Translations under genes and position numbers: made by a program | IMG/VR virus record: IMGVR_UViG_3300047322_000336 | Span: 1 to 48,345 of that record | From: a virus | Strand: one strand, 5' to 3' | DNA: 48,345 nucleotides | Notes under the pieces: generated by a model | Database searches by the model: none | The model's input: the letters and a program-made list of their open reading frames with translations, nothing else | What the model was told of the DNA's origin: nothing | In this document: one piece after another, positions 4,303-35,241 of the stretch | Layout: the number at the start of each line of letters is the position of its first letter | How positions within the stretch are numbered: the stretch's first letter is position 1

Positions 4303-4832
4303 CACCGGCCAAGACACTAGCGAAAGCGTTAGCCCGATACATCGGGGATGACGCCGTGCTGTCGTTTCAGGACGGCCCGAAGATGCAAGGGCAGTTCGTC
4401 GTTGTCCAGGTGCCGCGCAACAGCCCAATAGGCCAGCTGGAAATTCGCTACAAGAACGAACTTGGCGGGCTTGACGTACTGGAGCAGTTGAGCACTTTAC
4501 GCCAGGTCATGTTTACTGTTGACGCAGTGCGCGACGGCACACAAACGGCGGCCGACCGGGCTGAGGAATTGCGCATTAAGGTTCACAGTTCGGCAGCACG
4601 CCAAGAGCTTTTGGGTTTCGGGCTGGCACTGACTTCGGTCAGTGAAGTACGCGACCTCACAGCGCCGGGGGTTAACGCCGCTGCTGAACCCCGTTTTGGT
4701 TTCGACGTGTTTTACGCGGCGGTACAGACCATCGAAGAAGTTGTGCTCTCTATTGAAAGCATCGACATCAATGCCCGCTACCGTGGCATGTTCACCCCAA
4801 CTGATGCAATAATCGAAGTGAGGAAACCGTAA
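4299..4832 (+). CDS. Putative neck/tail terminator protein
   Basis: The start is ATG 4299, overlapping the preceding TGA. The product has 177 residues. It lies immediately before the sheath gene, where contractile phages carry the tail terminator. Segments such as RQVMFTVDAVRDGTQTAADRAEELR and the C-terminal beta-strand region fit a gpU/terminator-like alpha/beta fold. The call rests on order and size, so an alternative neck role is possible. Confidence 0.55.
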   Translation: MTPAKTLAKALARYIGDDAVLSFQDGPKMQGQFVVVQVPRNSPIGQLEIRYKNELGGLDVLEQLSTLRQVMFTVDAVRDGTQTAADRAEELRIKVHSSAARQELLGFGLALTSVSEVRDLTAPGVNAAAEPRFGFDVFYAAVQTIEEVVLSIESIDINARYRGMFTPTDAIIEVRKP

Positions 4833-6301
4833 TGGGCGATATTCCTGTATCTAGCGTGGTCAATGTCACCATTGGCACCGCTCCAACGTTCCCAAGCCGC
4901 CAGGGCTTCGGGACAATCAACATCATCGGGCCTTCGCCAGTTATTGGCGCGCTGGAACGTAGCCGCATTTACAACAGCATCCTTGGTGTTGGCGCCGATT
5001 TTGCCACCAACACCGAAGAGTTTTTGGCCGCTCAAGTTTACTACGGCCAGAACCCACGCCCGCGCCAGATTGTCATTTCGCGCCGGGTTGCAGCACCAAT
5101 CGGTGCGCAGTTGCGTGGCGGCTCCAATTCTGAACGGGTTTTGGCTAACTGGACAGCGGTAACGACCGGCTCCCTAAAACTGACGATTGGCGCAGTCACC
5201 AAAGACGTGTTGGCCATCAGCTTCGCAGCGGCTACCAACCTGCCCGGCGTAGCGGCTATCTTGCAGACGGCAATTCGTGCTGCTGATGTCAGCTCGGCGT
5301 TCGCGTCGGCTACGGTGCAGTACAAAGACAGCCGCTTCTACCTTACCAGCGGCGTGACCGGGGCAACATCGACCATTGGCTACGCAGCGGTAGCGGCAAG
5401 CGGCGTTGACATCAGCGGCGCTTTCCTCAACTGGACGGCTGCGACCGGCGCCCGCCCTGACGACGGGCATGATACCGAAACGCTGGTAGACGCCTTGACC
5501 GCCGCGCAGGACGCAAATCAGGACTGGTTCGGCTTTGCGTTCACCAAGGAAATGCGCGACGACCCGCAAAACCTGGACGCCGCCGCATGGGCGCAGGCCC
5601 GCGTGAAGATGTTCGCTTACGATTCCGACGACCGCACCAACCTGGACCCGCTGAACGATTCCAGCCTGGGTTACCAGATGGATCAAGCGACCTATGACCA
5701 CACCATGGGGGTGTTCAACCACACGCCGGACGGTTACGCGGCGGTTTCTGCAATGGCGCGGGCGTTCATCGTCAACTTCAACGTGGCTAACTCTACCATC
5801 ACCCTAAAGTTCAAAATCCTGCCGGGCATCTTGCCGGAAGTGGACTTGAAAGCCAGTGAAAAGGCCTCGCTGGACAAGATTCACATGAACGCCTACTACA
5901 ACGTCGGCGGCAACCCAATGTTCGGTGAAGGTTTCGTGTTCGGCGGGCGTTTCTTCGACGAAGTTCACGGCATTTTCTGGCTGCAGAACGCAATCGAAAC
6001 CAACGTGTTCGGCAAGTTGTACACCGACCAAACCAAAACCGCTATGACCGACCCCGGTGTTGCTTCGTTGCAGGGCAAGGTTGAAGAAGGCTTGGACCAG
6101 GGTGTCAATAACGGCCTGTTGGCGCCGGGCTACCTCCCTGATGGTACGTACTTGCAGAAAGGCTACCGGACTGAGGCGGTCAAAGTCAAGGACCATAACC
6201 AGTCTGATAAAGAGGCGCGTATCGGGCCACCTATCACCTTCGATTGCATCGGCGCCGGGGCTATCCACGGTATTTCGATTGTCGGCACCTTCCAACGTTA
6301 A
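4832..6301 (+). CDS. Tail sheath protein (DUF3383 family)
   Basis: The 489-residue product begins VSSVVNVTIG and matches DUF3383, the sheath family of Bcep781-like and related myophages. A middle region that includes DDPQNLDAAAWAQARVKMF and the conserved C-terminal part (RIGPPITFDCIGAGAIHGI) fit a sheath that contracts to push the tube into the host. The start overlaps the previous stop (TAATG). The next gene encodes the tube, the normal pair. Confidence 0.88.
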   Translation: MGDIPVSSVVNVTIGTAPTFPSRQGFGTINIIGPSPVIGALERSRIYNSILGVGADFATNTEEFLAAQVYYGQNPRPRQIVISRRVAAPIGAQLRGGSNSERVLANWTAVTTGSLKLTIGAVTKDVLAISFAAATNLPGVAAILQTAIRAADVSSAFASATVQYKDSRFYLTSGVTGATSTIGYAAVAASGVDISGAFLNWTAATGARPDDGHDTETLVDALTAAQDANQDWFGFAFTKEMRDDPQNLDAAAWAQARVKMFAYDSDDRTNLDPLNDSSLGYQMDQATYDHTMGVFNHTPDGYAAVSAMARAFIVNFNVANSTITLKFKILPGILPEVDLKASEKASLDKIHMNAYYNVGGNPMFGEGFVFGGRFFDEVHGIFWLQNAIETNVFGKLYTDQTKTAMTDPGVASLQGKVEEGLDQGVNNGLLAPGYLPDGTYLQKGYRTEAVKVKDHNQSDKEARIGPPITFDCIGAGAIHGISIVGTFQR

Positions 6302-6311
6302 GGAGTAGGCT

Positions 6312-6740
6312 ATGCGCCTCTACAGTTTCAAAGAAACGACATTGATCGTAGCGGGGCTGGAAATCACCGGTTTCGATGAGTCGGACGACTCCATCGTTAT
6401 GCGCCGGTTGGAAGACAGCATGGGTCACCAAGTCGGCAACAAGGGCGAAATGGCAGTATGGGTCCGCGCCAGCAAGGTAGGCGAAATCGTCTTCAAGTTG
6501 ATGCAGACCAGTGGCGATAACCAGCGCCTGAGTTTGGCCATGGCAGCAGCCGAAAACGGGTTGTTCGTACCCATTCCGGTGCTCTTCAAAGACAACCTGG
6601 GCGGCGACCTCATTACCGGCAACCGAGGCTATCTGCGCAAGCCTGCTGATGTCCAGCGCGGCACCGCCACCGGCTCCCAGTCTTGGAGCATTGTGGTAGA
6701 GCGTATGGACTTCGTGCTTGCAGGCGGTCAGGAAGTTTAA
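6312..6740 (+). CDS. Tail tube protein (DUF3277 family)
   Basis: The 142-residue product starts YSFKETTLIVAGLEITGF and has SMGHQVGNKGEMAVWVRAS, both typical of DUF3277, the inner tube protein of myophages with DUF3383 sheaths. It polymerises as stacked hexamers inside the sheath. The Shine-Dalgarno AAGGAG is strong. A hairpin follows the gene. Confidence 0.85.
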   Translation: MRLYSFKETTLIVAGLEITGFDESDDSIVMRRLEDSMGHQVGNKGEMAVWVRASKVGEIVFKLMQTSGDNQRLSLAMAAAENGLFVPIPVLFKDNLGGDLITGNRGYLRKPADVQRGTATGSQSWSIVVERMDFVLAGGQEV

Positions 6741-6747
6741 CCCCTTC

Positions 6748-6771
6748 GGCAGCCCGAGCAATTGGGCTGCC
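6748..6771 (+). terminator. Hairpin between tube and tail chaperone genes
   Basis: An 8-bp perfect stem (GGCAGCCC/GGGCTGCC) with an 8-base loop follows the tube stop codon. There is no T-run, so partial attenuation or mRNA 3'-end protection is likelier than full termination. It could help keep the abundant tube above the low-copy chaperone and tape measure. Confidence 0.4.
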
Positions 6772-6793
6772 TTACCGAATTTAGGAATTTACA

Positions 6794-7285
6794 ATGGCTT
6801 GCCAAGAAGAAACCAAAACCATCAACGGGCGCCACTACTACGTTGTGCAGATAGCGCCAGAAAAGGCCGTCCTGCTGCAATTGCGCCTCACCAAAATTCT
6901 CGGCGGGGCAATCGGCGCCCTGGCTCCCGCCCTCGACAGCAAAGCCAGCCCTGATGGCGCCGGGCGCACCGCTGCCATGGCAGGTGCTGTTTCTGCGCTG
7001 TTTGCCAACGCAACCGAAGAAGAGGTTTTCGGCCTCATTCGCGACTTGGTATGCACTGCCAAGGTCGATGGCGAGCGCATCAGCATCAATGAACATTTCA
7101 CTGGCGAGTATCTGGCCGACATTTACAAGGTGTTCTTTTGGGTCATGGGGGTAAACTTCTCCAGTTTTTTCGGCGCTGGCGGTCTGGACGGGTTACTGGA
7201 CAAGTTCAGGCGAGTGATGCTAAGCGAGTTAGCATCGCAGCAGCCACCGCCCCAAACCTCAACCCCTTCCTCTGGCGCCCAATAA
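6794..7285 (+). CDS. Tail assembly chaperone, short form (G/E-like)
   Basis: The 163-residue product lies between tube and tape-measure genes, the position of the lambda gpG or P2 gpE chaperone. These proteins coat the tape measure before tube assembly. The C-terminal end is low-complexity (QQPPPQTSTPSSG). Near its end lies a T_TTT_TTC slippery heptamer at 7165-7171, which leads into a -1 frame open to 7434. This makes it the zero-frame product of a G/GT-type pair. Confidence 0.75.
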   Translation: MACQEETKTINGRHYYVVQIAPEKAVLLQLRLTKILGGAIGALAPALDSKASPDGAGRTAAMAGAVSALFANATEEEVFGLIRDLVCTAKVDGERISINEHFTGEYLADIYKVFFWVMGVNFSSFFGAGGLDGLLDKFRRVMLSELASQQPPPQTSTPSSGAQ

Positions 7286-15768: not shown

Positions 15769-15796
15769 AAAAAGCCCCTCTTAAGGGGCTTTTTTG
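15769..15796. terminator. Bidirectional intrinsic terminator
   Basis: AAAAAGCCCC, a 6-base loop and GGGGCTTTTTT form a stem flanked by A-run and T-run, so it works on both strands. It separates the converging late operon (+) and nucleotide-metabolism operon (-). Confidence 0.88.
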
Positions 15797-16221
15797 TTGC
15801 TCAACGTTAGCCATGTTCGACCAAAACGCTTCCAGACTGCTTCAGTGCTATCCCGGTCGGGCCACGTATCGCCAGTGACGATAACCTGCACCGGGCTGTC
15901 CAACAGATACGGCAGACATTTGATGCAGGGCGGGCGGGTAACCACAGCCGTGTGCAAGAAGGGGTAGCTGCCCTCCTTTGCAGCCTGGAGCAGCGCCCGA
16001 ACTTCGCTATGCATGGCGCAGCACGTAGCGCTTGCCGTGGTTAGCGTGTCCGCGCCGTCGTTGCAGTCGCACTTGCCGTCAAACCGGGCGTTGGCCGACC
16101 GCACCACGCGGTAGCCGTCTTCGTTGTAAAGGTAGGTCGCAACAGCGGCGCGGGGGCAACCCCCCGCAACCTCTGCGAACCTGTTAGCGTGCTCAAGCGC
16201 TTCTGACAGGTCAAGTTGCAT
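15781..16221 (-). CDS. Deoxycytidylate (dCMP) deaminase-like protein
   Basis: The 146-residue product has the cytidine/deoxycytidylate deaminase zinc site: H71-S-E73 within CAMHSEVRAL and C99-x-x-C102 in PPCIKC. Such enzymes turn dCMP into dUMP. The start ATG overlaps the upstream gene's stop (TGATG), with GAGGTGG before it. It is the last gene of the operon with the hydroxymethylase-like gene. It might act on dCMP, on a modified dCMP, or keep the dCMP/dUMP balance. Extra cysteines (CDC, residues 51-53) could bind a second zinc as in T4 Cd. Confidence 0.8.
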   Translation of the reverse strand: MQLDLSEALEHANRFAEVAGGCPRAAVATYLYNEDGYRVVRSANARFDGKCDCNDGADTLTTASATCCAMHSEVRALLQAAKEGSYPFLHTAVVTRPPCIKCLPYLLDSPVQVIVTGDTWPDRDSTEAVWKRFGRTWLTLSNKKAP

Positions 16222-17024
16222 CACGCCACCTCAATTCCCAACTCAAGACAGCGGGCAACAAAGGCTTTCCAGGCCGCATCCCATTCAGCGTTCCAGGCTG
16301 CCGGGCCGCAGGAGTTTGTATAGGCCTGGCAGTAGGTGCGCAAGATTTCAGCGGCTCGCGCTTCTTCGCCTTTAAAGACGTGCCCCGAAGCCGCGTAGTG
16401 GTAGTAGTCGCCTACCGGCACTCCCAGCTGCAACGCTACATGTTCCTGCAACCGGGCAAAGACAAAGATGTCTTGGCACACGGTTGTAGTGTAGTTGTTG
16501 GAGCGCATAACCCCGACAAGGTCCAGTTTGCCGCTACGCAGCCGGAAGTTATACGCATACGTGCAAAGGTACTCACACTTGGTATCGCCCGCCGCCATGG
16601 CTTCAGCAACCATTTGGTCAGTAGAACCCAACATCATGATGTTGGCGCGGCGGCTGCCTGGGTCGCGTTGCAGTTCACTGATAACAAAGCTCAGTTGTGA
16701 CTTGATGCGCGGGCCGTAGGCGGTAACGTGGTAGCCGTACTTTTCGTCGTCCAAGATGGTGGCGAACTTGGCGGCGTTGGGGTTGAGCGCCAGCATTTCC
16801 GGCGACACATGGACCTTGCCCGAAATGATCCATTCAGCCATAACACCGGAAAATTCCGTGCGGAAGCCCCGCGCCGGGTTGGCAATGCAGCGCTCGGTAG
16901 GGTGGCGCGGCGCCGGAAGTTGGAACGTATGGTTAATCAATTCCATGTCAGGCGCCAGAAACGCTTGCAACAGATTAGCGTGGTACACGTCTTCCCAATA
17001 TTTCGAAATGGGGGTGAGGTTCAT
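16221..17024 (-). CDS. Thymidylate-synthase-fold dCMP hydroxymethylase candidate
   Basis: The 267-residue product has the TS fold landmarks: KYGYHV...YG near 96-104, S124-R-R phosphate site, and nucleophile C154 in YLCTYAYNF, 11 residues before GKL as in TS and T4 gp42. MRSNN follows at 173-177, then D185, and finally GHVF with H215. The MRSN motif and D185 match T4 dCMP hydroxymethylase (MRSND ... ND), where Asp replaces the TS Asn that selects uracil. I therefore favour dCMP over dUMP as substrate. Methylation instead of hydroxymethylation cannot be excluded. It lies 1 base after the methyltransferase gene and is translationally coupled to the deaminase. Confidence 0.78.
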   Translation of the reverse strand: MNLTPISKYWEDVYHANLLQAFLAPDMELINHTFQLPAPRHPTERCIANPARGFRTEFSGVMAEWIISGKVHVSPEMLALNPNAAKFATILDDEKYGYHVTAYGPRIKSQLSFVISELQRDPGSRRANIMMLGSTDQMVAEAMAAGDTKCEYLCTYAYNFRLRSGKLDLVGVMRSNNYTTTVCQDIFVFARLQEHVALQLGVPVGDYYHYAASGHVFKGEEARAAEILRTYCQAYTNSCGPAAWNAEWDAAWKAFVARCLELGIEVA

Positions 17025-17025
17025 A

Positions 17026-17988
17026 TCAGACTTGCTCCAACCGAATGCCAAAGTGACTGAGGCTATGTATACCAGAAACGGCCATGAAACCGGCGTCTTG
17101 CGCCTCGGCTGCAACCATTTGTTCGCTGATGCACTGCCCCGCCTCAGTCATGTCATGCATACGCCACTCCAGGCGCAGGTTCGGGTACTGTTCAATGACC
17201 AGCAAAACACCACTTAGCTTCAACAGTGACTTGGCGCGCTGCAACAGAAACTGGCGTTCGGCAGGGCCTTTACAGTGCAGGATTTCGCTCAACAGTACAA
17301 CGTCATACGCCCCGGCGTGATTGGCAAAGAACTGGTCGTCCTTGAACGCGTCACCGGCTTTGATACCCATGCGGGCGAGCACAGCGCCGGAAGCCTTGGT
17401 AAGCCCTGGCTCACGGTCGTACAGCAAACCTTGCGCCGTCGGATTTGCGGCCAAAAAGCTGGCCAGGTAGCCACCGTTACCGCCGCAATAGTCAAAGAAC
17501 TTCAACGGATTTGGCACACTCAACTTGCCCTGTTCTGCGACCCACTGATGCATATCAGGGAGAAACGCAACCGAGTAGTTTTCCAACCCGCCGCGCAGTG
17601 CAACGTACTTGGCCGGGTCCGTCTCGAAAGCGCCGTCCAGCTGTTGCTGCATCATGCTGAACTCGTATTCCAACAGCGCTTGGCAGTCGATAACGCGCTT
17701 ACCCGCGCCGGTCAGATAGACTTGCGGGCCTTCCTGCTCCCGGTTGAGGTCAATACCTCGGTCTTCAACTTCGATGAGACCCAAGCGCGCCCAACAGGTA
17801 GCAACCGGGTTGGCCTCAGTCGGGTTGGATTCCCACACTTTCTGGCGAATGCCCTTGATGAGCGCGGCAAACATCCAGGCGCCTTCCATCACAGCGTAGA
17901 TTGACGGGCCGTCTTCGGTGCGTGGGAACAGGAACTGCATACCGTTGGAAAACAGGCCGGTGGTTTCTTGCATTGTCGATTCGGTCAT
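17026..17988 (-). CDS. SAM-dependent O-methyltransferase-like protein (COMT type)
   Basis: The product has 320 residues. The N-terminal third looks like the winged-helix dimerisation domain of plant-type O-methyltransferases (LGLIEVEDRG ... VYLTGAGKRV). The C-terminal Rossmann domain has motif I DYCGGNGG at 166-173, acidic D191 after strand 2, and YDVVLLSEILHCKGPAERQFLLQRAKSLLKLSG near 228-260, typical of the Methyltransf_2 family. It lacks the DPPY and PC motifs of DNA methyltransferases. The family acts on small hydroxylated molecules. Here it lies between the kinase fusion and the hydroxymethylase candidate, so a hydroxymethyl-nucleotide or hydroxymethyl-DNA substrate is a reasonable guess but not shown. 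Confidence 0.7.
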   Translation of the reverse strand: MTESTMQETTGLFSNGMQFLFPRTEDGPSIYAVMEGAWMFAALIKGIRQKVWESNPTEANPVATCWARLGLIEVEDRGIDLNREQEGPQVYLTGAGKRVIDCQALLEYEFSMMQQQLDGAFETDPAKYVALRGGLENYSVAFLPDMHQWVAEQGKLSVPNPLKFFDYCGGNGGYLASFLAANPTAQGLLYDREPGLTKASGAVLARMGIKAGDAFKDDQFFANHAGAYDVVLLSEILHCKGPAERQFLLQRAKSLLKLSGVLLVIEQYPNLRLEWRMHDMTEAGQCISEQMVAAEAQDAGFMAVSGIHSLSHFGIRLEQV

Positions 17989-17991
17989 GGC

Positions 17992-19356
17992 TTACCCCTT
18001 AACCTTGAGAACTGGGAGGACGTACTGTTGGATGTAATCGTCGATACTGTGATTGTCCAAGCTGGCCATTTCCCATTGTTGCATGTCAAACACTTCGACG
18101 TTTTGTGGTTGGCGTTCTGGCCCTGCTGCACCGCTGAACGCGTCACGGAAACCTTCGTACACGGCGCGGGCTTTGGCCTCATTCGGGCCATGAAGCTCTA
18201 CACGGGTGCCGCACATGTGTTGGTAGCCCGCAAACCATTGATCTTCATCGGCAGGGAGGGCGATGATGTTGAGTAGCGAGTCAACTTCAGTGTGGTCTTT
18301 CCAGACACGCACGTCGGAGGCGTTGTACTCGCCAGCGCGGTACACTTCAGAGTAGACAGGGTGCGACAACCAAGGCCGTTCTAGTACCACAACGCAGTTA
18401 TGCGCCAACGCTGCCGCGTATTGAATCGCGTGGTAGCGGTAGTCGTGCATGACGGCTTCCAGCTGCTTGCTCCAGGTCAGGTGAATAACCTGCCCGCTGA
18501 ACAACTCGGCAATGCGGGCAGCCAGGGTGCTTTTGCCGCTGGCGTCCGGGCCGTCAATGGTGATGAGGCCACAAAGGTTCTTTGGCCCTGCGGTTTGGCT
18601 GTTGGAGCCTGGCGCGGCGTAGTCCATCGAAACGTGGTTGGCGCTAATAGGCTGTTGCGCGGTTTCGTACACCGGTTCTTCGATGTAAGGCCCCTGCCCG
18701 CAAAGGTCGCCAAGGTACGGCGGTAGCCAGCCATCAGGTTTGGTGATTTCCAGCCCGTGCCCTGTGTCCAAACCCTGCTCTTTGAGCGCTTGGCTACGGC
18801 GCTGTTTAGCTGGGTCAATGTCCTTGTTCATGTTGGCAGCGTGAACGCGGCGCAGCGCTTCATCAATATCGAAACAGTGCATTTGAGCCGTGGCGCGGAA
18901 AGCGCGAATGGCTTCGTTGAGCGCCATGCCTTGGCCAATCAGGTCACCCCGGCGCACGCGCTCTTCATAGCTGTGCAGTACGGCAGCGTGGCGGGCGGCG
19001 CGCATGTTGTTGGCGTCTTGGGCCAGCATATGCGGCTTAACGTCGCGGTAGCCCAGTGCGATTGGGGCGGTAGTGATGTATTCGCCCAACCCTTGACGAT
19101 GAACGGTGCCGGTCAAGAAATAAAGTTCGTCAGCCAGGGCGTCCAAACAGTCGACAATTTCAAAGTCCTTAACCGCGTCCAGGTACTCTTGAGCTTCTTC
19201 CAGGTGGCATTCCATGCGAAACGCCGATTCAGGTTTGCTCAATTCACGCGGCTGGCCGTCGTAGGGCTGGCCGAACTTGTTGTGGAATTGGGTCAACATC
19301 TGGAGCAGCGTCATTTTGGCATACGGCGTGGTGTCATACATTTTAAACTTTGGCAT
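17992..19356 (-). CDS. MazG-like NTP pyrophosphohydrolase fused to dNMP kinase
   Basis: The product has 454 residues. The N-terminal 215 or so are an all-alpha MazG/phosphoribosyl-ATP-pyrophosphohydrolase-like domain: E49, E53, E54, E57 in ECHLEEAQEYL, then DCLDALADELY at 69-79, and a second conserved block VHAANMNK (171-178) with KPDGWLPPYL. From about 262 a P-loop kinase begins: IDGPDASGKST (Walker A 269-277) and ERPWLSHPVYSEVYRAG near 326-342, like dTMP/dNMP kinases. Hydrolysis of a dNTP to dNMP and rephosphorylation of a modified dNMP would bracket the hydroxymethylase step. The gene is 3 bases from the methyltransferase gene. Confidence 0.8.
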   Translation of the reverse strand: MPKFKMYDTTPYAKMTLLQMLTQFHNKFGQPYDGQPRELSKPESAFRMECHLEEAQEYLDAVKDFEIVDCLDALADELYFLTGTVHRQGLGEYITTAPIALGYRDVKPHMLAQDANNMRAARHAAVLHSYEERVRRGDLIGQGMALNEAIRAFRATAQMHCFDIDEALRRVHAANMNKDIDPAKQRRSQALKEQGLDTGHGLEITKPDGWLPPYLGDLCGQGPYIEEPVYETAQQPISANHVSMDYAAPGSNSQTAGPKNLCGLITIDGPDASGKSTLAARIAELFSGQVIHLTWSKQLEAVMHDYRYHAIQYAAALAHNCVVVLERPWLSHPVYSEVYRAGEYNASDVRVWKDHTEVDSLLNIIALPADEDQWFAGYQHMCGTRVELHGPNEAKARAVYEGFRDAFSGAAGPERQPQNVEVFDMQQWEMASLDNHSIDDYIQQYVLPVLKVKG

Positions 19357-29519: not shown

Positions 29520-32147
29520 ATGACTGACCGCCGTAAAAGTGTCCCGGCACTTAAAATTGCAACAGCGCCACAGTTGTGGCATGGGATAAGACACACCGAG
29601 ACTGTCAAAGGCGTCGAGAAACAGAAAGTCCATGCCACCGTAAAGGTGCGTAGCGCTTCGTGGAGTTCGATTGTAGGCGCCCTCTCCAAGCTCAAAATTG
29701 CCGTCAAGAAAGAGAAGTCGCCCTACTTTGTATTCGCGTCATTCACCGACAAGGCCGAGAACGGCGAAATGCACCGCCGCAACAACGGTGTCGAACAGTT
29801 CTACGGTGTTGTGCTCGACATTGACACCCCTGATGCACCCCCGCCGGAAGAAATTAAGAGCCAGCTGGACGCCCTCGGCTTGGCTTATGCGGTGTACACA
29901 ACGTTCAGCTACGACCCGCTCACGCCGGGGAAAGAAAATAAGTTTCGCGTGGTCGTACCCTACGCTGAACCGGTGGCGCCGCGTGACCAGCCTTTCGTGG
30001 TCCTTGGCTTTGCAGAGATGCTCGGCGTGTCGCAGACCTTTGACCACTGCTCCCAGGTGGCGTCACAGCCCATGTACTGGCACAGCGCCCCAAGAGAACG
30101 CGCCGATGAGGCCATGTTCTGGTCATGCGTTGACGGGGAGCCCCTGGACCCGGAAGGTGTACTAGCCATTGGTAAGATGATGGTCGGTGACAACCCTGGA
30201 CGCACGTACTCTACAAGTCCGGCTGACATGCACGTTGGCATGAAGATGGAAGCAGGCGAGCGCCACAACCAGTTCGTCGGTTTCATGCGCTGGCAGAAGG
30301 ATAAAGGCGAGTCGCTTGAGAACATTATGGTCCAGATTGGGGCTATGAACGACAAGTTGGATGAACCGCTTGATGAAGAACAGTTGGACGGGCTGCGCCG
30401 CGTGTGGGTGTCGTTCGAGCGCAACAATAACGCGTTCGGTTTTGAACACCACCGTAGCAGTATTGAAAACGCGCCTATGGAGAGTCGCGAAGTATACCGT
30501 GCCGTTGTACAGCAAATTGCCAACAGCCAAAGCATGCTCAATGCCAGTGACCGCAAAGACCTGTTCAAGCTAATTAAAGAGAAGCGTGTCGGGGCTACCT
30601 TTAAGGAAATTGAAGAACTGTACAAGGGGTTCACGGTTGAGGTCGAAGAACGCGACACAACTGAACTTGCTGAAGTCCGCGCCCGAGTTGACAAGCTGCT
30701 GCTGCGCAAGCTTGAAAAGTACGTGTGGATTCTTTCGGACGACAGCCTCATTGACCTGGAAGACGGCACGCCCCGGCCCAAGTCGGCGTTTAAGAACCTG
30801 CTCATTACCTACTATGATGAGTGCGCTGAACGTGTGGGCTTTGCCGACTTTGCAGAGTTGAAGCTGGGTCGAGAATACCCTTTTGACAAGAAGCTGTTGC
30901 TGACCGCCTCGGCCAAGGGCTACCACCCTGGCAAGGAAGAAAACGCGGTATACGAGTACAAGGACGTCAAGTACCTCAACCGCTACCGTGTGCCGCGTGG
31001 CGAGATTAAGCGCGGCAACGTCAAGCCCCTGCTGCAACACCTTGAATACCTGATACCCGTCAAGGTTGAACGCGATTGGTTCATTAGCATGGTGGCTTAT
31101 ACACTGCAACAGCCGGGCAAGCTGATTAAGTACATGTACGTCATTGAGGGCGGCAAGGGCATTGGTAAGTCGATCTTGCGGGAGCGGGTGTTTGCTGCCA
31201 TCTTCGGAGATAGCAACGTCCAAGAAGTCACGGCTGAAATGTTGGTCGACGACAAGAAGGGGTGGATTAGCAACGCGCATGTTGACGTGTTCGAGGAATT
31301 CAAGTTCCCGTCTAAGCGCGACGGCCAGGATGCAGTGTACAACTTTCTGAAAAAGTACACGGCCAACCCGAACGTTCAGCGCCGTGCCATGCAAAAGGAC
31401 TATCAGGAAGTTCCGAACTTCTCGCTTAAGGTGGCTTTTCGCAACCCCGAAGACCGGTTGCAGCTTGAGCCAGGGGATCGGCGGTACGTTATCGTTGAAG
31501 GGCCTAAGCGCCAGCTGGAGCGGTCCTATTATGATGAGTTGTGCGACTGGCTTGATGAGCCCGACAATCAGGCAGCCATGCGCCACTTTTTCAAAAACTG
31601 GGACTGGAAATCAACAGCGTTCGACCCGAACGAACCACTTAAGACGGCGGCAACCGCTGAATTGGAATCACAGAACGACAATTGGCCACACTGCGCCCTG
31701 GCTCGGGCCTTTGACCAGCCGAACAACCCATTCGACGTTAACGCACCGCTCATGTATGAATCGGACCTTATCAACATTGTCAAGGCGTTCAGTACCGGGC
31801 AATTTGAATCAGGGCGTGCCGAAGGGTTAGTAGGCGGTGACGTGCATACACGCCGCAACTTTGTCAATGCGCTTGAGGCCAGCGGTTTTACACGGCTGGG
31901 CGGTGGCTCGGCTTCGGAGTCACGCTTTCGCAGGACAAGTCCAAGGGGTGTTCAGTTCTGGGACCGGGCGTGGGCAATGAAGGGAGTGTCGCTGAAGATC
32001 TTGCGGAAGCTGCAAAGCGGGTTCCACTGGACGACCTACGCGGACGACCTGGACGACTTTCATATTGAGGCGCGGGCCTTTGTCAAGACGTTCAAGCAAT
32101 GGCAAGAGGAACTTGAAAGCGGCGAAAGTGGGGAGTGGGAGAGCTAA
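29520..32147 (+). CDS. Primase-helicase (AEP-like primase, SF3/VapE-type helicase)
   Basis: The product has 875 residues. The N-terminal region has a D-x-D pair (D100, D102 in VVLDIDTP), then FRVVVPYAEPV and QPMYWHSAP, as in archaeo-eukaryotic-type phage primases. The C-terminal half has a P-loop near 544-551 (GGKGIGKS) followed by GWISNAHVDVFEEFKFPSKRD and AFRNPEDRLQLEPGDRRYV, the DUF5906/VapE-like superfamily 3 helicase core. It should open the origin and prime synthesis for the phage polymerase. A GGAG ribosome site precedes the ATG and a strong terminator follows. Confidence 0.85.
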   Translation: MTDRRKSVPALKIATAPQLWHGIRHTETVKGVEKQKVHATVKVRSASWSSIVGALSKLKIAVKKEKSPYFVFASFTDKAENGEMHRRNNGVEQFYGVVLDIDTPDAPPPEEIKSQLDALGLAYAVYTTFSYDPLTPGKENKFRVVVPYAEPVAPRDQPFVVLGFAEMLGVSQTFDHCSQVASQPMYWHSAPRERADEAMFWSCVDGEPLDPEGVLAIGKMMVGDNPGRTYSTSPADMHVGMKMEAGERHNQFVGFMRWQKDKGESLENIMVQIGAMNDKLDEPLDEEQLDGLRRVWVSFERNNNAFGFEHHRSSIENAPMESREVYRAVVQQIANSQSMLNASDRKDLFKLIKEKRVGATFKEIEELYKGFTVEVEERDTTELAEVRARVDKLLLRKLEKYVWILSDDSLIDLEDGTPRPKSAFKNLLITYYDECAERVGFADFAELKLGREYPFDKKLLLTASAKGYHPGKEENAVYEYKDVKYLNRYRVPRGEIKRGNVKPLLQHLEYLIPVKVERDWFISMVAYTLQQPGKLIKYMYVIEGGKGIGKSILRERVFAAIFGDSNVQEVTAEMLVDDKKGWISNAHVDVFEEFKFPSKRDGQDAVYNFLKKYTANPNVQRRAMQKDYQEVPNFSLKVAFRNPEDRLQLEPGDRRYVIVEGPKRQLERSYYDELCDWLDEPDNQAAMRHFFKNWDWKSTAFDPNEPLKTAATAELESQNDNWPHCALARAFDQPNNPFDVNAPLMYESDLINIVKAFSTGQFESGRAEGLVGGDVHTRRNFVNALEASGFTRLGGGSASESRFRRTSPRGVQFWDRAWAMKGVSLKILRKLQSGFHWTTYADDLDDFHIEARAFVKTFKQWQEELESGESGEWES

Positions 32148-33892: not shown

Positions 33893-34690
33893 ATGAAACT
33901 TGTCTCCCCCGCCCTGCTCATTGAAGCATTGGCTGCCCGCTGGAACTCTGACGATAAGCCAGAAATGGAAATCGTCGCAGACTTCATCACCGACTACGCC
34001 AAAGACAGCGGCTTTGACATCCCGTTGAAAATCGTGTTGGCGCACTACGTCGGTGAGGCCGACTTGTTCAACCCCCAGGCCGAGTTGCCGTTGACGCCGG
34101 GCCAGTACAGTGATTTGTACAGTCAAGAGTACGACTACAAGGCCCACGGCGACCCTACTCCGCGTGATTGCCATTTCCCAACTAACGAACTCGGCTCTGA
34201 TGCAATCCCGGCTGCCCCTACCCGCCCTGCTGCGTTCAACCGCAAGCAAATTGACGACATGATGCAGTCCGATTGGGTGCATAGCAGTGAAGGTGAAATG
34301 CACTCCTTTGGCCCGGCTGGCAATGGCGATGTTGCAGCGCTGCTAGTCGGTGAGCTAAGGGGCGGCAGGCTGTTTGTCCACACGACCTACAAGGGCAAAG
34401 CTGCCGAAGCTGCTGCGCGTAAGTACCTGTTTCGCTTAACCCGCCCCACCCCAAGGGAACCAATTGGCGGCGAGCACGGTGACAGCTCAAAACCCGCTAA
34501 GCCGTTTTTGTCGCCAACAGGCCGCTTCCCTACGCAACCTGAAATGCAAGAACTTCCAGGGCGCCGTATGGCAGCTAAGTACACCACCCTACCACTGCAA
34601 CTTAAGTGCGATGGTTGCGGCAAGATGTTCCACCCCACCCTGACAGCTGATGTCCTTTGCTTCGACTGCAAAGAAGCGAATTCGCTATGA
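33893..34690 (+). CDS. Hypothetical protein with C-terminal zinc ribbon
   Basis: The product has 265 residues from ATG 33893 (AGAGGT upstream). The N-terminal 45 are helical; a middle domain contains GRLFVHTTYKGKAAEAAARKYL. The end has CDGCGKMFHPTLTADVLCFDC, a CxxC...CxxC zinc ribbon. Its stop overlaps the DenV-like start, so the two are co-translated and may share a DNA-related role. Family not recognised. Confidence 0.65.
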   Translation: MKLVSPALLIEALAARWNSDDKPEMEIVADFITDYAKDSGFDIPLKIVLAHYVGEADLFNPQAELPLTPGQYSDLYSQEYDYKAHGDPTPRDCHFPTNELGSDAIPAAPTRPAAFNRKQIDDMMQSDWVHSSEGEMHSFGPAGNGDVAALLVGELRGGRLFVHTTYKGKAAEAAARKYLFRLTRPTPREPIGGEHGDSSKPAKPFLSPTGRFPTQPEMQELPGRRMAAKYTTLPLQLKCDGCGKMFHPTLTADVLCFDCKEANSL

Positions 34691-35241
34691 CCCGCATAAA
34701 CACCATTGACGTTGACCTACTCCCTATGCCCTGGCTTGTTGCAGAGTACCGTGAATTGCCGCGTATCCTGAACCGTGTTGCGGCGGGCAAGCCCTTCCCG
34801 CTCATTCCCGTAAACTACTGCATGGGCACCGGCCACGTTAGCTTCTTCGGCAACAAACTGAACTGGCTGTACGCACGTCATGAAGCGTTGCGCGCTGAAC
34901 TTAAGAAGCGCGCTGAACTTAAGAAGCGCGCTGAACTTAAGAAGCGCGGCGGCAAGGCTGATATGGACTGCAACGCAGCCTACAGGCTTTGTATGGAGCG
35001 CTACCCTAAGTTCTGCAAAAGCCGTTGGGTGCCAGACCTGCGCGACCACGAAACCAACCTCTGCCGCCTTGTAGAAAGCTGGGCACGGGCCAAGCGTATG
35101 GACAACGCGGGCCTAGAGGCTTGGCTGACGAAGGCATTGCAGCGTCACATGATGCCCAAGTTTGAATACAAGTTGACGCCGTTGGAGAACGATCCAGTGG
35201 CCCGAACCCTTAACTTTACAGTGGATATACAGCCATGCTAA
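34687..35241 (+). CDS. denV: DenV-like pyrimidine dimer DNA glycosylase
   Basis: The start TRIN...AEYRELPR aligns directly with T4 endonuclease V: Thr2 (the Schiff-base N-terminus after Met removal), Arg3, E23 and R26 are at the same positions. GTGHVSFFGNKL matches the T4 GAGHVTFFYDKL segment. The enzyme cuts out UV-made pyrimidine dimers. The 184-residue product is longer than T4 DenV (138), partly because of three exact AELKKR repeats after residue 68 and a longer C-terminus with Cys residues. Confidence 0.88.
   Translation: MTRINTIDVDLLPMPWLVAEYRELPRILNRVAAGKPFPLIPVNYCMGTGHVSFFGNKLNWLYARHEALRAELKKRAELKKRAELKKRGGKADMDCNAAYRLCMERYPKFCKSRWVPDLRDHETNLCRLVESWARAKRMDNAGLEAWLTKALQRHMMPKFEYKLTPLENDPVARTLNFTVDIQPC
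34893..34946. repeat. Three tandem 18-bp units inside denV-like gene
   Basis: The 18-bp unit starting CGCTGAACTTAAG is present three times without change and in frame, giving three AELKKR hexapeptides that lengthen one helix. Absence of any mismatch suggests recent expansion. Confidence 0.93.

Follow-up and report, generated by a model that had tools for sequence, protein, structure and literature searches.

The window is the whole stretch of DNA that was analysed, the 48,345 nucleotides of IMG/VR virus record IMGVR_UViG_3300047322_000336. On its minus strand a single open reading frame joins a MazG-type pyrophosphohydrolase to a dNMP kinase. The gene order on this strand is fusion, methyltransferase, TS-fold enzyme and dCMP deaminase. 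The four form a tight run: 3 bases lie between the first two genes and a single base between the second and third, and the last two overlap by 4 bases. The features are as follows.

17992..19356, minus strand: MazG-kinase fusion protein, ATG start, 454 aa
18715..19356, minus strand: MazG-type NTP pyrophosphohydrolase half, residues 1-214 (PF01503, phrog_671)
19186..19200, minus strand: EExxE motif, residues 53-57, found in 7/7 fused proteins and in split homologues
19129..19143, minus strand: second acidic motif, D72-x-x-x-D76
18571..18714, minus strand: linker, residues 215-262, variable, with in-frame indels among relatives
17992..18570, minus strand: TMK-like P-loop dNMP kinase half, residues 263-454 (phrog_761, TS adjacency)
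18526..18552, minus strand: Walker A, GPDASGKST, residues 269-277
17026..17988, minus strand: SAM-dependent methyltransferase of the Methyltransf_2 (O-methyltransferase) type (PF00891; H238 in SEILHCKG)
16221..17024, minus strand: TS-fold enzyme, predicted 5-hydroxy-dCMP synthase (PF00303; key residues; RB69 clade)
15781..16224, minus strand: dCMP deaminase (PF00383 at 28.8 bits, cut-off 25; phrog_174)

The dCMP deaminase has a GTG start that overlaps the TS stop. The TTG start listed for the TS gene at 17114 is too early, and relatives agree on the ATG at 17024. Upstream of the fusion on the same strand are an SNF2-type helicase, a family A DNA polymerase, an ssDNA-binding protein and a DUF2800 nuclease. 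The larger ORFs of the window were scanned for DHFR, ThyX and Glycos_transf_1 and none of these families matched. No sugar genes are among the window's scanned genes. Two other genes on the plus strand are worth recording. One is a T4 denV-like pyrimidine dimer DNA glycosylase (34657-35241, PF03013 at 1e-10), and the other encodes an 875-aa protein with a VapE-like/DUF5906 domain that is probably a primase-helicase (29520-32147).

The fused protein

A sequence-only reading of this DNA had placed MazG and kinase motifs in one ORF. Its coordinates were right, and domain searches match both halves. The N-terminal half matches PF01503 (PRA-PH) over residues 22-90 (1.6e-7, 32.1 bits, cut-off 21.3), a cut-off also passed by the fusions of contigs L129 and L010, and it matches phrog_671, 'nucleotide pyrophosphohydrolase', over residues 5-218 (9.7e-20). 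The C-terminal half matches phrog_761, 'thymidylate kinase' (1.1e-8). The Pfam kinase models stay below their cut-offs on this half (Cytidylate_kin 19.3 bits of 26, Thymidylate_kin 15.2 bits of 27). We call it TMK-like because Thymidylate_kin is below cut-off.

The EExxE and Walker A motifs had been read correctly, but the D-x-x-D proposed for the MazG half is actually D72-x-x-x-D76. This DxxxD form is common to the aligned MazG proteins of related phages; T4 gp56 has ExxD. About 50 residues of the MazG half, at about 95-150, form an additional helical hairpin. This hairpin is absent from the fusions of L010, L030 and L031 and present in other phage MazG proteins (VAP7, RF1, yarpen). In the kinase half, the putative nucleoside monophosphate site (DR motif) reads DRxWxSExxY in most relatives and ERPWxSHPVY in the window clade. 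The stretches IHLTWS and ERPWLSHPVY are shared with relatives.

The same fused frame is found in IMG/VR contigs L005 (81% identity) and L009 (54%), and again in L129. Since it recurs, it is neither a chance frame nor an assembly slip, and the fusion is real. Against L005 the dN/dS is 0.16 for the MazG half, 0.35 for the linker and 0.11 for the kinase half, so both halves are under purifying selection and the linker is more weakly so. The linker shows no recurring start codon that is both in frame and served by a clear ribosome site.

An AlphaFold model of the fusion, made from a four-row alignment, is fair in the MazG half and has pLDDT below 50 in the kinase half. Foldseek alone returned nothing significant for this model. 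Six dimeric dUTPase entries top the VIA list for the MazG half (Z 8.0-9.5), from Trypanosoma brucei and staphylococcal elements. We give this likeness little weight because unrelated helical proteins come next and score nearly as high (7.9).

Distribution of fused and split pairs

The distribution of the kinase was examined with kinase-profile searches of IMG/VR. Together with earlier loci these gave 97 loci, which fall into 54 clusters when grouped at 90% identity. Two short motifs were used to pick the sample, and ranking was by score; its fractions are therefore not unbiased frequencies. Seven distinct viral contigs have the fusion: the window, L005, L009, L129, L010, L030 and L031 (six of them among the 54 clusters, plus L129). 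In each of the seven a TS-fold gene and a dCMP deaminase accompany the fusion, and all seven fused proteins retain the MazG acidic motifs. Two doubts that went with the sequence-only reading are answered by these counts. The N-terminal part does not lack catalytic residues, and the fusion does not occur mostly without hydroxymethylase-like genes. A SAM methyltransferase is also in the cluster of every fusion, but its family and position differ. In the window clade an O-methyltransferase follows the fusion. In the more distant L010, L030 and L031 a Methyltransf_23 gene lies just before it.

That second arrangement is not confined to fusions. In 14 of the 54 kinase clusters a Methyltransf_23 gene directly precedes MazG or the fusion, with a TS of the Glu58 type, and perhaps it caps a hydroxymethyl group. 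Such loci include these.

L010:2498-3310
L030:4730-5548
L031:4826-5647
L003:934-1758
L012:5569-6393
L014:3451-4347

Split genes for MazG and kinase are common, and they adjoin each other, often with an overlap of a few bases, in AXL3, PW916, MedDCM, MW202510 and phages of Curtobacterium and Microbacterium. MazG is coupled to the TS/kinase operon in three independent ways: as an adjacent gene, fused to the kinase, or fused to the TS (contig L131). A kinase tree puts six fused kinases in one clade of eight (97/90), together with the split kinase of VAP7 and one locus from an Alteromonadaceae MAG. A single origin of the fusion is only partly supported by this tree, since two members of the clade are unfused, two changes are needed and long branches meet there. 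A search of genome contigs with a two-row fusion profile found no relative of the fusion, and the kinase profile found six distant kinases only.

Several of these loci deserve comment. In Vibrio phage VAP7 (L002:11911-13233) the MazG and kinase genes share one reading frame and are separated by 21 codons and two in-frame stops, and this may be a split fusion or a forerunner of one. Its MazG gene is annotated as a haloacid dehalogenase. Rhizobium phage RHph_N34 (Pootjesviridae, L124:1428-3283) has an annotated dNMP kinase, an NTP pyrophosphohydrolase and a Glu58-less TS in a row, which is a split version of the set. Some kinases have a C-terminal extension of about 130 residues (L003:2319-3299, L012:6938-7921, L011:723-1760, L033, L036, L039, L083, L101), which may be UDG-like, judging from its look (VGD/VGE, WPF, HPQxxxRF). 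The Alteromonadaceae MAG contig (JAESPQ010000022.1, 219 kb) holds the same phage stretch four times about 65 kb apart (L109-L112), so it probably represents a phage genome of 65 kb in concatemeric form. After the kinase there comes a TS-like ORF that lacks both the catalytic Cys and Asp177. We considered L109 as a possible case of co-loss, in which a degenerate fusion goes with a dead TS. This was rejected; the 140-residue N-terminal extension of the TS-like ORF has no detectable MazG similarity.

A probable cytosine pathway of the RB69 type

A TS-fold gene is in the locus of 50 of the 54 kinase clusters and directly adjacent in 46. The residue at ThyA N177 is Asp, the dCMP type, in all 49 readable TS sequences. 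According to papers cited in PMC8670742, changing this Asn to Asp switches the preference from dUMP to dCMP. Phage AXL3 has a split version of this operon and, for thymidylate, a ThyX-like gene apart from it, and its DNA provides a line of evidence. Of 37 enzymes, 35 fail to cut this DNA, and the two that do cut it have sites made up solely of A and T (PMC7504290). AXL3 DNA supports this kind of pathway but not a 5-hydroxy step, since its TS is of the Glu58/Asp169 type. The sequence-only reading had argued that opposite reactions in one protein make sense only if a nucleotide is modified between them. That argument holds up, with a TS-fold gene and a dCMP deaminase near every fusion, and a modification between hydrolysis and re-phosphorylation is well supported on this pattern of genes. 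We argue that the fusion very probably belongs to a cytosine-replacement pathway.

The next question is which one. With the ThyA residues in brackets, the window TS has C154 (C146), D185 (N177), M62 (E58), N177 (D169) and F217 (Y209). Its clade shares Met for Glu58, Asn for Asp169 and Phe for Tyr209, giving the signature M58, N169, D177 where RB69 has F58, N169, D177. In a tree of 45 rows the 12 proteins that lack Glu58 and have Asn169 form one clade (100/95, and in 200 of 200 bootstrap trees): the window, L005, L009, RB69, PSTRCR, CHI14, Thanatos-2, four Pootjesviridae and PAU. T4 gp42 and the Glu58-type TS fall outside it. The clade persists at 98/98 when L129 and L131 are added. The nearest solved sequence is PDB 9iqc/9iqu, which matches the RB69 TS-like protein end to end. 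An AlphaFold model of the TS from a three-row alignment had a pLDDT of 44; fold searches derived from it are meaningless and were discarded. The TS-like enzyme of RB69-type phages is reported to work at the mononucleotide stage, where it yields 5-hydroxy-dCMP (PMC13390438). In Thanatos DNA a pentose is joined directly to cytosine through an O-glycosidic bond (PMC12838424).

One can imagine the T4 scenario instead, which is what the sequence-only reading had proposed. MazG would turn dCTP into dCMP, a gp42-like TS would make 5-hydroxymethyl-dCMP for the kinase, and the methyltransferase would cap the hydroxymethyl group or be unrelated. The roles of the genes are indeed those of T4 56, 42, 1 and cd, and the window TS does have the catalytic Cys of gp42 and its Asp at ThyA N177. 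It lacks Glu58 and Asp169, however, and groups with RB69. At the five columns that separate the two types it has 0 gp42-type states, 3 of the RB69 type and 2 of its own. The T4 scenario is therefore unlikely for the window in the strict sense, and the RB69 label should replace the T4 label. It must be noted that the fusions in L010, L030 and L031 do neighbour a TS of the Glu58/Asp169 type, and for these a hydroxymethyl reading is possible. For the window, the clade and the residues make it likely that the TS produces 5-hydroxy-dCMP rather than 5-hydroxymethyl-dCMP.

The kinase family does not distinguish between the two. Its profile matches the RB69 'thymidylate kinase' (1e-10), two genes from the RB69 TS, and kinases near the TS in PSTRCR, Thanatos-2, CHI14 and Efa140. 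Because it is also found beside the RB69-type TS, this family accompanies both types. The RB69 kinase (L120:4048-6214) lies beside a 5-hydroxy-dCMP synthase and is a candidate 5-hydroxy-dCMP kinase of the same family as the window kinase. The substrate of the window kinase is argued from gene company, because this half is below the Pfam cut-offs and its model is poor. That it acts on a 5-substituted dCMP is nonetheless quite likely. It is likely, with a little less confidence, that the MazG half acts on dCTP.

We consider it reasonably likely, judging from the operon, that the fusion is a bifunctional nucleotide-pool enzyme in a pathway that replaces cytosine by way of 5-hydroxy-dCMP, possibly with O-methylation, before the kinase and incorporation. 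The fusion and the genes around it stand on firm sequence evidence; the substrates, the order of steps and the final base given here are those we infer. The MazG half would split pyrophosphate from dCTP, and perhaps from dUTP as well, to leave dCMP. This would remove the normal precursor and supply the substrate. The TS-fold enzyme would convert dCMP to 5-hydroxy-dCMP as in RB69. The SAM enzyme could then O-methylate this to 5-methoxy-dCMP, or act at the DNA level. The kinase half would phosphorylate the 5-substituted dCMP and ignore dCMP, by analogy with T4 gp1, which is annotated as active on HMdCMP and not on dCMP. Host NDK would make the triphosphate, the family A polymerase of the phage would incorporate it, and the dCMP deaminase would turn spare dCMP into dUMP for thymidylate.

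MazG could have a different role. MazG proteins have broad substrates and the two reactions are formally opposite, so the MazG half might, late in infection, destroy free 5-substituted dCTP or damaged nucleotides (or else ppGpp), with the fusion acting as a regulatory cycle and not as a one-way route. We find this improbable, since the three independent couplings of MazG to the operon fit substrate supply better. Weaker still is a scheme of thymidylate supply, in which MazG is a dUTPase, the TS makes dTMP and a dTMP kinase follows, so that joining the two would do no more than channel the synthesis of dTTP. In its favour, annotations of this sort are usual for such genes in many phages, dimeric dUTPases head the structural matches of the MazG half and a dCMP deaminase is present. 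But the Asp in all 49 readable TS, the lack of DHFR and ThyX matches among the larger ORFs of the window, the C/G-site resistance and separate ThyX-like gene of AXL3, and the reported action of RB69-type TS on dCMP make it very improbable.

The O-methyltransferase and comparison with known systems

The sequence-only reading did not include the methyltransferase between the fusion and the TS. This protein matches PF00891 at 23.0 bits (cut-off 22.3). Its relatives in L009 and L129 reach 26.1 and 41.2, and the distant one in L131 is below the cut-off at 17.0. Its best PDB profile match is CalO1 (6.3e-8). H238 stands at the 'lHdw' position of the catalytic His. It lines up with the corresponding His in CalO1 and in 3mcz, and L131 has it too. 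The family was detected in five contigs, all of them (5/5) beside a TS without Glu58 and all with the His kept, and in none of the loci with a Glu58 TS. The search used short patterns on a finite collection, which makes 5/5 suggestive, not conclusive.

L131 (IMGVR_UViG_3300017716_002237, 4818-7061) is informative here. This 35-kb contig is unrelated to the window and has the O-methyltransferase, a TS-MazG fusion and a dCMP deaminase. Its TS lacks Glu58 and has MazG fused at the C-terminus (PF00303 5.2e-12, PF03819 1.3e-5). MazG was thus joined to the putative 5-hydroxycytosine route twice and differently, to the kinase in the window and to the TS in L131.

Methyltransf_2 enzymes act on phenol-like hydroxyls, and 5-hydroxycytosine has one. 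That the methyl ends up on the 5-oxygen has nearly an even chance; the enzyme might instead methylate DNA or some other target. The full prediction is more tentative. Cytosine would be replaced by 5-methoxycytosine, with 5-hydroxy-dCMP made as in RB69, an O-methyl cap, and a dCTPase-kinase fusion that clears dCTP and charges the product. The 5-methoxyuridine of tRNA is made from 5-hydroxyuridine. If the prediction is true, 5-methoxycytosine is the DNA counterpart of that base and a sugar-free protection of 5-hydroxycytosine. It would be a new base, and a small candidate O-methyltransferase would join the known set. A literature search that was thin on subscription papers, and is therefore weak evidence of novelty, found neither the fusion nor 5-methoxycytosine in phage DNA.

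Phage base replacement usually takes four separate enzymes. Here the enzymes on either side of the modification step are combined in a single polypeptide. Since the fusion lineage is spread over several phage groups, selection seems to favour the joining of clearance and charging. The operon ties the fusion to the recently described 5-hydroxycytosine route and to an O-methyltransferase found consistently with that type of TS, and it points to a substitute for cytosine that has yet to be described from phage DNA. The fusion is real and its pathway is of a known kind, in a new arrangement and probably with a new end product.

Each known system shares only part of this arrangement. In MetaGPA modified-cytosine contigs the TS, PRA-PH and dCMP deaminase domains co-occur as they do in the window, but with carbamoyltransferases alongside, and the words MazG, kinase and methyltransferase are all absent from the text of that paper (PMC8670742). 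Stenotrophomonas phage AXL3 and Pseudoxanthomonas phage PW916 have a methyltransferase, MazG, kinase, TS and deaminase in overlapping genes, in an order like that of the window. Their MazG and kinase are separate, however. The kinase is extended by a further C-terminal domain, Glu58 and Asp169 are both present in the TS, and the methyltransferase is of another family and lies upstream. T4 has the same roles in genes 56, 42, 1 and cd (dCTP pyrophosphohydrolase, dCMP-modifying TS fold, modified-dNMP kinase and dCMP deaminase). Genes 56, 42 and 1 are separate and scattered there, gp42 keeps Glu58 and Asp169, and gp1 has no clear similarity to the window kinase. RB69 (Mosigvirus) attaches arabinose (PMC13390438), while the window has an O-methyltransferase and no sugar genes were found among its scanned genes. 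No MazG is present in the 12 kb of RB69 examined, whereas MazG is fused in the window. The RB69 kinase is a separate gene, but it is of the same family as the window kinase and lies in the same cluster as the RB69 TS. That TS, of the RB69 5-hydroxycytosine pathway, falls in one clade with the window TS and shares its residue signature.
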